A stretch of DNA of 64,000 nt from contig CANMOY010000001.1 in NCBI GenBank assembly GCA_947499595.1, positions 248,001 through 312,000 on the forward strand. The letters are read 5' to 3'. The translations under genes and the position numbers were made by a program. Positions 19,879-23,127 of the stretch are shown here, in pieces; the stretch's first letter is position 1; each line of letters opens with the position of its first letter. The DNA comes from an uncultured Mesonia sp. GTDB taxonomy: Bacteria > Bacteroidota > Bacteroidia > Flavobacteriales > Flavobacteriaceae. The notes beneath the pieces are model-generated. The model was not told the origin of the DNA and ran no database searches. It saw nothing but the letters and a program-made list of their open reading frames with translations.

Positions 19879-20880
19879 TCATAATAAAAAAATATTTTGA
19901 GCTTGCAGTTCTGTTCTTACTTTAGGAGACCAAATGCTGCTTTGAACTTCGCCTATATGCTTTTTATTTAGTAGAAACATGGCTACACGAGACTGCCCTA
20001 TACCGCCGCCCATACTAGGCATCAATAAATCGTTAAGTAACAATTGATGAAAATAATAATCTTTCTTATATAATTGATCTCGTTTTTCCAATTGCTGCAA
20101 TAAGGTTTTTGAATCAACCCGAATACCCATTGAAGATAATTCAAACGCTTGTTGTAATACGGGGTTCCATACCAAAATGTCGCCGTTTAAACCATTGTAT
20201 TTAGCACAAGTGGGGGTAGACCAATCATCGTAATCTGCCGCTCTGCCATCGTGCGCCTCGCCATTGCTTAACGAACCACCAATACCAATTAAAAATATAG
20301 CACCATACTCTTTTGCTACTTTATCTTCTCTTTTTTTGGCTGGCAGGTGTGGGTAGCGTTGTAGTAAGTCTTCGGCGTGAATAAACGTTATTTCTTGAGG
20401 TAGTTTAGTTTTTATTTTAAAACGATCTTCAACTTTTTTTTCGGCTTTAAGCAGGGCTTTATAAATCTTTTTTACGGTTTTTTTGAGGGTTTTTAAGTTG
20501 CGATCTTCTTCTTCAATTACTTTTTCCCAATCCCATTGATCAACGTAAATAGAGTGAATTGGACTATAATCTTCATCGGGTCGAATTGCACGCATGTCTG
20601 TGATTATACCCGTGTTTGGTTTAAAAGCTAGTTCTTTTAACCTGTGCCTTTTCCATTTTGCTAATGAATTTACCACAACAGCCTTTTCATCGTTTAGTGC
20701 TTTAATAGGAAATTGAACACATCTTTCAATCCCGTTGAGGTCATCGTTTATTCCAGTATTTTCAATAACAGCCAATGGCGCCGATACGGGTGTTAGCTTT
20801 AACTTTTTTTCCAATTGCTTCTTGAAGGTTTTTTTTAGGAAATGCAATTGTGTTTCTGTTTTTAGAATGTCTGTTTTCAT
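19879..20880 (-). CDS. asnA: Aspartate--ammonia ligase
   Basis: 333 aa, close to the 330 aa of E. coli AsnA. It makes asparagine from aspartate, ammonia and ATP in a class II aminoacyl-tRNA-synthetase-like fold. Recognised blocks: FLKKTFKKQLEKKLKLTPVSAP at the start, NDDLNGIERCVQFPIK, QFPIKALNDEKAVVVNSLAKWKR, DMRAIRPDED, the Asp-binding YVDQWDWEKVI and the C-terminal class II motif MGGGIGQSRVAMFLL. About 175 nt of leader separates its probable promoter from the ATG. That leader holds an Asn-rich reading frame and a terminator, described separately, which should tie its expression to Asn-tRNA charging. Confidence 0.96.
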   Translation of the reverse strand: MKTDILKTETQLHFLKKTFKKQLEKKLKLTPVSAPLAVIENTGINDDLNGIERCVQFPIKALNDEKAVVVNSLAKWKRHRLKELAFKPNTGIITDMRAIRPDEDYSPIHSIYVDQWDWEKVIEEEDRNLKTLKKTVKKIYKALLKAEKKVEDRFKIKTKLPQEITFIHAEDLLQRYPHLPAKKREDKVAKEYGAIFLIGIGGSLSNGEAHDGRAADYDDWSTPTCAKYNGLNGDILVWNPVLQQAFELSSMGIRVDSKTLLQQLEKRDQLYKKDYYFHQLLLNDLLMPSMGGGIGQSRVAMFLLNKKHIGEVQSSIWSPKVRTELQAQNIFLL

Positions 20881-20910
20881 AATTTATTAGATTTAGATTA
20901 GTTTATAAAC

Positions 20911-20938
20911 AAAAAAAGCCTGCTAAAAGTAGCAGGCT
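20911..20938 (-). terminator. Attenuator terminator in the asnA leader
   Basis: On the minus strand AGCCTGCT (20938-20931), a 6-nt loop ACTTTT and AGCAGGCT (20924-20917) form an 8-bp GC-rich stem followed by a seven-T tract (20917-20911). It lies 30 nt before the asnA ATG, downstream of the leader frame, where it must stop transcription before asnA unless it is disrupted. Confidence 0.88.
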
Positions 20939-20973
20939 AGATGATTAAATAATAATACACAATACCGCTACCC
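20927..20973 (-). promoter_or_regulatory. Candidate antiterminator pairing in the asnA leader
   Basis: GGGUAGCGG (20973-20965), which spans the leader stop codon, can pair over nine consecutive positions with CCUGCUACUU (20935-20927). There are six Watson-Crick pairs and three G-U pairs. This would remove five of eight bases from the terminator's 5' arm. A ribosome ending at the stop codon would cover the upstream strand and let the terminator form; one stalled on the Asn codons would not. Confidence 0.7.
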
Positions 20974-21018
20974 AAAGGCAGTTAAATTAGTATTGTTATT
21001 ATTATTTAAAAAGTACAT
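20968..21018 (-). CDS. Asn-rich leader peptide of asnA
   Basis: A 16-codon frame ATG...TAG encoding MYFLNNNNNTNLTAFG. Six of 16 residues are Asn, five of them consecutive at codons 5-9 (AAT AAT AAT AAC AAT, positions 21006-20992). The stop codon is 30 nt before the terminator hairpin and inside the predicted antiterminator strand. Length, codon bias, order and spacing are those of amino-acid-biosynthesis leader peptides such as those of his, leu and thr operons. It is too short to be a functional protein. The upstream context (CTTAAAG before the ATG) is A-rich without a strong ribosome site, as is normal here. Confidence 0.85.
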   Translation of the reverse strand: MYFLNNNNNTNLTAFG

Positions 21019-21059
21019 CTTTAAGTAGTATTTTAGTTATAGTTGGTTGTAATAATAAT

Positions 21060-21067
21060 CAAATATA
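21060..21067 (-). promoter_or_regulatory. -7 promoter element for the asnA leader transcript
   Basis: TATATTTG on the minus strand matches TAnnTTTG. A start a few bases downstream gives about 35 nt before the leader ATG. No clear -33 TTG is seen. Confidence 0.5.
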
Positions 21068-21141
21068 GAAATTATTTTTAAAAAATTATAAGATTTGATA
21101 TTTTTTTTACCATTAAATATTAAAAAAACATATAAGCAGCC

Positions 21142-23127
21142 CTAAACTAATGCTTTATTAAAACGCTCAATATTCTTGGGATTCCCGTTTATGAAGACTA
21201 AATCATGCTGTAAAATTCTCTCTTCTGGTCCAATATTGTCTATCATAATTTCCTTGCGTTTTATGGCCAGTATATTGACACCAAAGTTTTCGCGTAAATT
21301 TAGTTGGGATAAGGGTTTTTGAATTAACTTTCCGCTGTCTCGAATAACGCGCACACAAGTTATATTAAATTCTGGATGTGCCGGTTTTGGTTTATATGTG
21401 CGTGGCAATTCTTTTTTATTTTGTAATAATTCGTAATTATCGGCACGAATGTATTCAACAAAGTGATGGATATCTTCTTCGGGAATCAAGAAGTTATGCA
21501 TTACCCGAGAGAAAATTTCAACAGAGGTCTCAAACTCTTCAGGTATAACTTCATCTGCCCCTAATGTAATTAATTGGTTGGTCTGTTTTACATATCGGGT
21601 TCTTACAATTAATTGTACAGATTTAGATAAACTTCGTATGGTGCCAATTATAGCTTTGGTCGCTTTATCATCAGAGATGGCAACCACGATTGTCCTTGCT
21701 TGAACCACATTGACTTTTTCTAATATATGAGAATGACTTGCATCTCCATAAATAATAGGAATATTATTCTTTTTTTCTCGTTTTACCGTTTCGGCATTAT
21801 ACTCAATTACAACAAAAGGAATATTACTATGATAAGCCGCTTTTGCTAGATTAGAACCATTAATACCATAGCCAATAATGACCAAATGATTTTTTAATCC
21901 TTTATCATCAGTTTCTAATTCCTCTTCATGCTGTTGCGGATTTTTTTGTAGAGCGCGAACTAGTTTGTTGCCTAGAACTGAATCCGTAAAACGGCTTGCA
22001 TACAGAATCACAAAGGGTGAAATCATCATAGACACTATTGAAATAGCTAGGAAATACTGGTTTGTAGTGGTTGAGAGTAAATTATTTTCTATGCCCACCT
22101 TAGAAAGTATAAATGCAAATTCCCCAACTTGAAAAAGTGCAAATCCAGTTAAAATAGCAGTTCGCATTTGATACCCTAATAACCTAATACACAAGGCAAT
22201 TAAAGAAGATTTTATAAGCAACAAGGCTAATACAACCAATATAATTATTAAGAAATTCTCAAGAAAAAAATTAATATCGAGCAGCATACCAATTGAGATA
22301 AAGAAAAAACTCGTAAACAGCTCTTTAAACGGTAATATAATATTGGTAGCTTGGTGACTAAATTCCGATTCAGATATAATAAGTCCCGCTAGAAAAGCAC
22401 CCAAAGCTAGCGATAATCCAGTCTCAGAGGTAAGGAAAGCTACTGCAAAACAAATGGTTATGGTGGTAAGTAAAAATAGTTCTTTGCTTCTTGTTTTAGC
22501 CACGGCATATAACAGTTTGGGAACCACATATTTTGCGCTTATTATGGTTATAATAACCACGACAGCTGTCTTAAGCAACAATAGCAATATACTTTGGGTA
22601 ACATTGTCTGATTGACCGGCAATGATAGGTGTAAACAGCATCATGGGTACTACAATGATATCCTGAAATATCAAAATAGCCAGCGTGTTTTTACCGTAAT
22701 TGGTGTTTATTTCATTTCGATCTTGGAGTACGCTCAATACAATTGCTGTGCTGGAAAGCGAGAATAAAAATCCAACAAAAATTGATTCCTCCCAAGAAAA
22801 CCCCAAAAAATAATAAAAACTTCCTGCAATTAGAATACTCAGTAAAACCTGAAGCCCCCCACCTATAAAGACTGTTTTTTTTATTGAGGCCAATTGTTTT
22901 ATCGAAAGCTCCATTCCAATGACAAAAAGAAGCATAATAATGCCAATTTCAGAAATTATTTCTATTTGTTCGTCGGCGGTAACCAGGCTGAGTACACTGG
23001 GTCCAATTATGATTCCAGTAAACAAAAAACCGATAATCGAAGGGATTTTAAGGCGTTGTAGTAGAAAAACAATAATTACCGAAAACCCCAGTAAAATTAA
23101 AATGTCTTGTAAAATAGGGATATGCAT
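21142..23127 (-). CDS. CPA2-family monovalent cation:proton antiporter with TrkA domains
   Basis: 661 aa. The first 380 residues are about 12 membrane helices of the Na+/H+ exchanger type, with GFLFTGIIIGP and LALGAFLAGLIISESEFS, the KefB/RosB-like signatures. A RCK/TrkA-N domain follows, beginning NHLVIIGYGINGSNLA (Rossmann GxGxxG, about residue 410) and DKATKAIIGTIR. A TrkA-C domain ends the protein (about 570-655). Likely K+ or Na+ export coupled to protons and gated by nucleotide binding. It follows the Ca2+-ATPase gene by 96 nt, a gap occupied by a nested inverted repeat. Confidence 0.9.
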   Translation of the reverse strand: MHIPILQDILILLGFSVIIVFLLQRLKIPSIIGFLFTGIIIGPSVLSLVTADEQIEIISEIGIIMLLFVIGMELSIKQLASIKKTVFIGGGLQVLLSILIAGSFYYFLGFSWEESIFVGFLFSLSSTAIVLSVLQDRNEINTNYGKNTLAILIFQDIIVVPMMLFTPIIAGQSDNVTQSILLLLLKTAVVVIITIISAKYVVPKLLYAVAKTRSKELFLLTTITICFAVAFLTSETGLSLALGAFLAGLIISESEFSHQATNIILPFKELFTSFFFISIGMLLDINFFLENFLIIILVVLALLLIKSSLIALCIRLLGYQMRTAILTGFALFQVGEFAFILSKVGIENNLLSTTTNQYFLAISIVSMMISPFVILYASRFTDSVLGNKLVRALQKNPQQHEEELETDDKGLKNHLVIIGYGINGSNLAKAAYHSNIPFVVIEYNAETVKREKKNNIPIIYGDASHSHILEKVNVVQARTIVVAISDDKATKAIIGTIRSLSKSVQLIVRTRYVKQTNQLITLGADEVIPEEFETSVEIFSRVMHNFLIPEEDIHHFVEYIRADNYELLQNKKELPRTYKPKPAHPEFNITCVRVIRDSGKLIQKPLSQLNLRENFGVNILAIKRKEIMIDNIGPEERILQHDLVFINGNPKNIERFNKALV

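Follow-up and report, generated by a model that had tools for sequence, protein, structure and literature searches.

The locus examined here raises the question of how a bacterium might tie the expression of asnA to its supply of asparagine by means of the DNA in front of the gene. In the window, which denotes the whole stretch of 64,000 nucleotides analysed, asnA occupies positions 19879-20880 of the minus strand and encodes aspartate--ammonia ligase (NCBIfam TIGR00669, 411.5 bits against a cut-off of 292.8). The regulated gene makes the very amino acid that would be sensed, and the same applies to asnB in relatives. Since an Asn-rich frame and a terminator precede asnA, the cell should make the enzyme only at low asparagine. 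A preliminary description had placed a promoter box, a leader frame, an antiterminator strand and a terminator upstream of an asnA starting at 20880, and direct reading of the minus strand confirmed this layout and its coordinates.

The putative -7 promoter box TATATTTG of the Bacteroidota TAnnTTTG type (21060-21067, minus strand, as are all features below) is followed by the leader peptide frame MYFLNNNNNTNLTAFG (20968-21018), which starts with ATG and comprises 16 codons. As had been described, codons 5-9 form five consecutive Asn control codons (AAT AAT AAT AAC AAT, 20992-21006), to which a further Asn at codon 11 (20988-20986) is added, giving six Asn in total. The antiterminator strand GGGTAGCGG (20965-20973) overlaps the leader stop codon and pairs with the terminator 5' arm at -12.4 kcal/mol, a duplex that was matched in strength by 1 of 100 shuffles. 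By eye, the nine pairs previously proposed between 20973-20965 and 20935-20927 hold, three of them being G-U, whereas the calculation yields a slightly different duplex of ten pairs interrupted by one bulge. The terminator hairpin AGCCTGCTA-CTTT-TAGCAGGCT (20917-20938, -13.9 kcal/mol by folding) runs into seven Ts (20911-20917); its extent over 20938-20911 and its T run stood as described, whereas the stem has 9 bp in the fold and not 8 bp.

Minimum-energy folds disclosed two elements that were absent from the preliminary description. The strand containing the Asn run (20989-21009) is paired with 20945-20966 in a long protecting hairpin, inside which CTGCC (20977-20981) is paired with GGTAG (20972-20968) and masks the antiterminator strand in the absence of a ribosome. 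The 181-nt leader as a whole folds with a z-score of -5.2 against 200 shuffles. When both strands of the 64-kb window were scanned for 19 amino acids (all except Ala), using ATG frames of 8-40 codons with at least four like residues in eight and a terminator of the scored type within 110 nt, this was the only such unit. The single motifs are common, as four AAY codons in a row occur 48 times in this genome, compared with 45 occurrences of the reversed control, and TAnnTTTG was found 100 times in the window with 101.8 expected; among 30 of the 48 AAY loci that were examined, a frame with a terminator was present only at the asnA leader. The weight lies on the combination of parts and on their conservation, neither a single AAY run nor a -7 box being significant by itself.

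In our reading, asnA is very probably controlled by a ribosome-mediated transcription attenuator that responds to the charging of tRNA-Asn. The transcript would begin ahead of the leader frame. As long as it is not translated, the Asn-codon strand would pair with 20966-20945, the antiterminator strand would be hidden, and the polymerase would be stopped by the terminator near 20911. Under a shortage of Asn-tRNA, the ribosome translating the leader would halt on the Asn run and open the protecting hairpin; GGGTAGCGG could then pair with the 5' arm of the terminator, and asnA would be transcribed. When Asn-tRNA is plentiful, the ribosome would reach the stop codon and cover GGGTAGCGG, and the terminator would form.

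The states of this switch were computed by folding the RNA up to the terminator loop after removal of the portion up to the front edge of the ribosome. With footprints of 10, 12 and 14 nt, antiterminator pairing in the window was 0.66-0.67 with the ribosome on any of the six Asn codons and 0.00 once it had reached the last two sense codons, as well as without a ribosome; an alternative definition of the arm gave 0.75 (Asn codon), 0.00 (stop codon) and 0.00 (no ribosome). The masking itself contributes to the zero at the stop codon, while the zero without a ribosome is not imposed by it and results from the hairpin between the Asn strand and 20966-20945 together with the inner CTGCC/GGTAG hairpin. 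A stall at Tyr, Phe or Leu, the codons before the Asn run, would open the window switch too. Pairing at the middle Asn codon exceeded that at the stop codon by more than 0.2 in 31 of 32 leaders (the stop state of leader 2 of L089 was not computable), so the proposal that stalling on Asn favours the antiterminator and arrival at the stop codon the terminator is borne out by the predicted states. Two results count against a uniform model, or fit it poorly. The switch was closed without a ribosome (below 0.2, judged by eye) in only 16 of the 32 leaders, and in four leaders (leader 2 of L042, L086 and L089, and L098) the end of the frame reaches the terminator or falls within it, so that the details must differ there.

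The Asn-rich frame is conserved in relatives, as the preliminary description had suggested examining. In two species of the same genus (L082 and L083 of genomes G005 and G012; AsnA 98% and 94% identical), the leaders read MYFLNNNNNNNLTASG and MYFLNNNNNANLTALR, with the six Asn codons unchanged and differences, by eye, at codons 4, 10, 15 and 16. The TATATTTG box recurs there with the same sequence at the same position (-49 from the leader ATG), and the stretch 20967-20939 and the terminator are identical in all three species. Identity among them amounts to 86-94% for the leader frame, 96-97% for the promoter and untranslated stretch and 91-97% for the first 150 bases of asnA; the leader frame is thus no better conserved than the start of asnA, which counts against the attenuator reading. 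The frame is also found in two further species of the genus with AsnA of 70% identity (L001 in G004 and L085 in G010) and in other genera and families, the named carriers including Mesonia, Hymenobacter, Solirubrum and Vaginella. The predicted Asn leaders therewith extend beyond Flavobacteriaceae.

For a broader view, 114 distinct asnA loci were collected, of which 112 had at least 300 nt of upstream DNA and were kept (L010 and L029, with short upstream DNA, were dropped). Of the 112, 24 have a frame in which four or more of eight codons specify Asn, and at 22 of these a terminator stands behind it. Six dinucleotide-shuffled sets of the same upstream regions contained 0-3 frames and none with a terminator, and for any other amino acid a frame plus terminator was seen at 0-2 of the 112 loci. 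Frames with terminators were likewise missing from 648 tiles of 3' flank (6 frames) and from the opposite strand of the 112 loci (2 frames), and also from 30 upstream regions of asnS, which is accordingly not supported as a second target. On the other side, 90 of the 112 asnA loci, many of them from Prevotellaceae and other Bacteroidales, lack such a leader, which counts against the attenuator reading. A further search in three families detected asnA in 1 of 36, 6 of 46 (one weak match, 1.7e-4) and 1 of 88 genomes; of four newly found loci, L258 and L259 carry tandem leaders, and L260 and L261 carry none. With L258 and L259 added, the AsnA tree has 116 rows, 24 of them with a leader, and the leaders cluster on it (7 changes compared with 22.0 in shuffles, 0 of 500 as low), although close relatives inflate this figure and parts of the tree are uncertain owing to long branches. 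The gene itself is patchy, being present in 9 of 395 genomes of the order and 24 of 395 of the class, as if it had been exchanged between lineages, and yet several isolated copies have the tandem leader.

Two Asn frames in series, each with its own terminator, precede asnA at 11 of the 24 leader-bearing loci (L001, L085, L006, L042, L086, L087, L089, L100, L103, L258 and L259), an example from the genus of the window being MTIKFFHNAANFNSVNFNLTEKRKA followed by MKKSINNNNNNNST, whereas the window has one frame. As the window terminator resembles the second terminator of that same-genus species (AGCCTGCTA in both), the window leader most plausibly corresponds to unit 2, unit 1 having been lost or not acquired in the first place; inspection of 21141-21019 by eye revealed no trace of a first unit. 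At Hymenobacter-type loci (L002, L003, L004, L007, L008, L097 and L098), leader 1 with its terminator was seen by eye to be followed by a G+C-rich hairpin without a T run, which replaces leader 2 at about -120 to -60 before asnA.

Whether the antiterminator strand changes in step with the terminator was evaluated on 32 leaders from 23 loci, including the borderline L099 (3 Asn in eight codons), which stands outside the 22 of 112. The antiterminator strands, whose selection for complementarity biases these tests, fit their own terminator arms better than permuted ones, with a sum of -443.4 kcal/mol against a mean of -312.6 (sd 14.4), a value attained in 0 of 5000 permutations. Taken singly, 24 of the 32 leaders were reached by at most 5 of 100 shuffles; the eight that miss this level, the worst being leader 2 of L086 (32 of 100), count against the rule. 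In 20 leader-1 type sequences (L106 and L099 left out), pairing within the terminator holds for all 160 cells and pairing with the antiterminator strand for 153 of the 160; the 7 unpaired antiterminator cells, compared with none for the terminator, also speak against it. All 17 departures from the consensus terminator arm preserve both pairings, and six of them alter all three strands (L089, L021 twice, L100, L090 and L087), while ten say little because a C/T exchange stands opposite an unchanged G. Two-sided changes were observed at 5 of 7 terminator pairs in 18 sequences and at 7 of 9 consensus terminator pairs in 13 aligned leaders. The comparison of terminator and antiterminator that had been proposed as a check is thus favourable in the permutation, cell and pair-change counts alike.

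TAnnTTTG is a promoter signal in Bacteroidota. As a motif, it occurs within 90 nt upstream of the first leader at 13 of the 24 loci, compared with a mean of 1.5 and a maximum of 6 in 200 mononucleotide shuffles, and at 0 of 24 leader loci between the leader ATG and asnA, which is consistent with a transcription start that would lie ahead of the leader.

The same arrangement is not confined to asnA. The asnB-family set was drawn from 65 of 68 matching genomes and 30 scanned loci, from which 4 of 95 without a clear start and one duplicate were removed; in the resulting 90 distinct loci, an Asn leader with a terminator was found at six (L210, L215, L223, L272, L322 and L323), other amino acids giving 0-1. 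Two of the six belong to species of the window genus without asnA (G002 and G015), and the asnA-bearing G005, G010 and G012 of that genus have no asnB-family match over the cut-off. The likewise asnA-bearing G000 and G004 of the genus show an asnB-family match within a longer frame of about 610 codons, without an Asn leader (L225 and L216), and G000 has no match to the asnB of G002 at E <= 1e-150. That leaders of one kind stand before both asnA and asnB suggests that the regulation tracks the pathway and not the gene. The upstream regions of three other asnB loci of the genus (L213, L217 and L221) are without an Asn frame and contain, by eye, TATATTAG and the hairpin TCAACTC...GAGTTGA, or nearly that hairpin, directly before the gene, which is possibly a different control. 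Two species of the genus, G006 and G008, have neither asnA nor an asnB-family match over the cut-off, and asnS is present in both.

A model of leader 1, R1, was run over 390 genomes and matched 53 of them at E <= 0.01. As a detector of Asn leaders it was abandoned, the matches being mostly weak and the ten loci examined leading to leaders for other amino acids. In other Bacteroidota, two Phe-rich frames with two terminators precede prephenate dehydratase (L240), Thr/Ile-rich frames precede aspartate kinase (L237 and L243), two Ile-rich frames with one terminator seen precede a branched-chain transaminase (L245), and a Lys-rich frame precedes aspartate-semialdehyde dehydrogenase (L233), all of these frames being followed by AAGCCTTCC-like terminators. 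At L232, two Phe/Asn-rich frames precede a gene. The R1 matches at other amino-acid genes suggest a wider class of leaders.

Pro-Pro follows the Asn run in 8 of 14 asnA peptides of leader-2 type, among which the three leaders of the window clade are counted, in the contexts SPPLSPV, RPPPGK, DPPPGG, SPPGPD, SPP-stop, TPPGGD-stop, NPP-stop and NPPPEEGK, compared with 0 of 20 leader-1 type peptides; over these 14 and the six asnB leaders, 13 of 14 occurrences of CCNCC are in codon phase. When the Pro codons were exchanged in the fold, antiterminator availability changed little in six of the eight Pro-Pro leaders, L042 and L086 being different, while in the asnB leader L223 the exchange shifted availability from 0.02 to 0.78, so the Pro codons there act on the RNA fold. 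The asnA leaders without Pro-Pro are closed without a ribosome (0.00-0.36), whereas those with Pro-Pro are mostly open (0.48-0.87), with L042 (0.13) and L086 (0.05) as exceptions; contrary to this rule, the asnB leaders L322 and L323 are open without Pro-Pro (0.57 and 0.47). Pro-Pro is known to arrest ribosomes, from which we infer that it may park the ribosome over the antiterminator strand. It is conceivable, if rather doubtful, that the Asn attenuators form one branch of a phylum-wide Bacteroidota class of leader peptides whose older form has two in series, that the second leader combines an Asn run with a Pro-Pro arrest which parks the ribosome over the antiterminator strand and replaces the protecting hairpin of Pro-less versions such as that of the window, and that the arrangement follows asparagine synthesis, standing before asnA or asnB.

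Several other readings of the window have to be weighed against an Asn-sensing attenuator. The hairpin might simply terminate transcription of the upstream antiporter gene (21142-23127), with the Asn-rich frame arising by chance in an A+T-rich spacer. In accordance with this, the nearest large upstream frame is co-directional at 19 of the 23 leader loci where a crude finder detected one (the window included), and AAY runs are not rare in this genome; however, that frame lies on the other strand at 4 of the 23, the antiterminator strand tracks the terminator arm, and each terminator in tandem loci has its own Asn frame. A chance origin of the frame was rejected by the shuffled sets, by the controls, which are devoid of an Asn-rich frame with a terminator, and by the window scan, leaving this explanation very improbable. 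Somewhat less remote, though still quite unlikely, is a genuine attenuator whose signal is a general slowing of translation or the modification state of tRNA-Asn instead of its charging. The tRNA carries queuosine and t6A, and modification alters the reading of AAT and AAC. That a stall at codons 3-4 would open the switch as well agrees with such a signal, but Asn-rich frames with a terminator occur at 22 loci against 0-2 for any other amino acid, and the genes behind them, asnA and asnB, represent two families of asparagine synthetase.

A last alternative is a T-box, or another RNA to which tRNA or a ligand binds directly, the frame then being a bystander. In its favour stand the highly folded leader and the existence of Asn T-boxes in Firmicutes, but it leaves the conservation of the Asn codons unexplained. 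It can be set aside almost entirely, as the six matches that Rfam gives for 20300-21700 up to E = 5 include no T-box or riboswitch family, and a 2008 survey gives 0 T-boxes in 7 Bacteroidetes/Chlorobi genomes (PMC2494555). The sequence evidence and the modelled folds together thus support an Asn-codon transcription attenuator as the probable control of asnA, as originally proposed.

Peptide-leader attenuators are known for the his, trp, leu, ilv, thr and phe operons. The present unit shares with them a run of cognate codons, a protecting hairpin, an antiterminator at the leader stop codon, an intrinsic terminator and a biosynthetic gene, and differs in the amino acid it would sense, Asn, and in its phylum, Bacteroidota. 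Two further systems offer themselves for comparison, namely the Salmonella mgtCBR leader, whose signals are ATP and proline, and the Asn T-boxes, which exist in Firmicutes. Like the tandem relatives of the window, mgtCBR has two short frames in one long leader that controls transcription (PMC3641672). The tandem relatives, however, carry the same amino acid twice, the mgtCBR signals are not Asn, and the window has one frame. The Asn T-box (PMC2494555) similarly senses tRNA-Asn charging and controls asparagine genes, but it binds tRNA directly and has no leader peptide, and the window locus has no T-box match. Among the Rfam attenuator families, Trp_leader (RF00513) scored 19.9 bits against a gathering threshold of 41 and Thr_leader (RF00506) 16.9 against 55 over 20300-21700.

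Another comparison is offered by Flavobacterium psychrophilum, of the same family Flavobacteriaceae, for which a passage of PMC9723704 describes strong indications that amino-acid operons are attenuated by leader peptides; that passage names no amino acid, and 'asn' is absent from the main text. Leader-peptide-like frames are noted for Bacteroides in PMC7366714, and the authors of PMC2965389 were aware of no example beyond Proteobacteria and Actinobacteria until their own from Firmicutes. In the full-text literature searched, neither asnA nor asnB was found with an Asn leader; the amino-acid attenuator survey of Lopatovskaya, Seliverstov and Lyubetsky (2010), which may mention Bacteroidetes or Asn, lay outside that body. 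With the present unit, asparagine would join the amino acids sensed by leader-peptide attenuation, and well-defined, covarying examples become available in Bacteroidota. Bacteroidota start translation largely without Shine-Dalgarno sites. Since the proposed switch would need a leading ribosome close to RNA polymerase, transcription-translation coupling in this phylum becomes directly testable with one reporter. Compared with the known systems, the mechanism is classical, and the case is new in its amino acid and comes from a phylum for which the literature covered hardly documents this mechanism, while the tandem arrangement and the Pro-Pro motif, carried by relatives and not by the window, are the more novel part.
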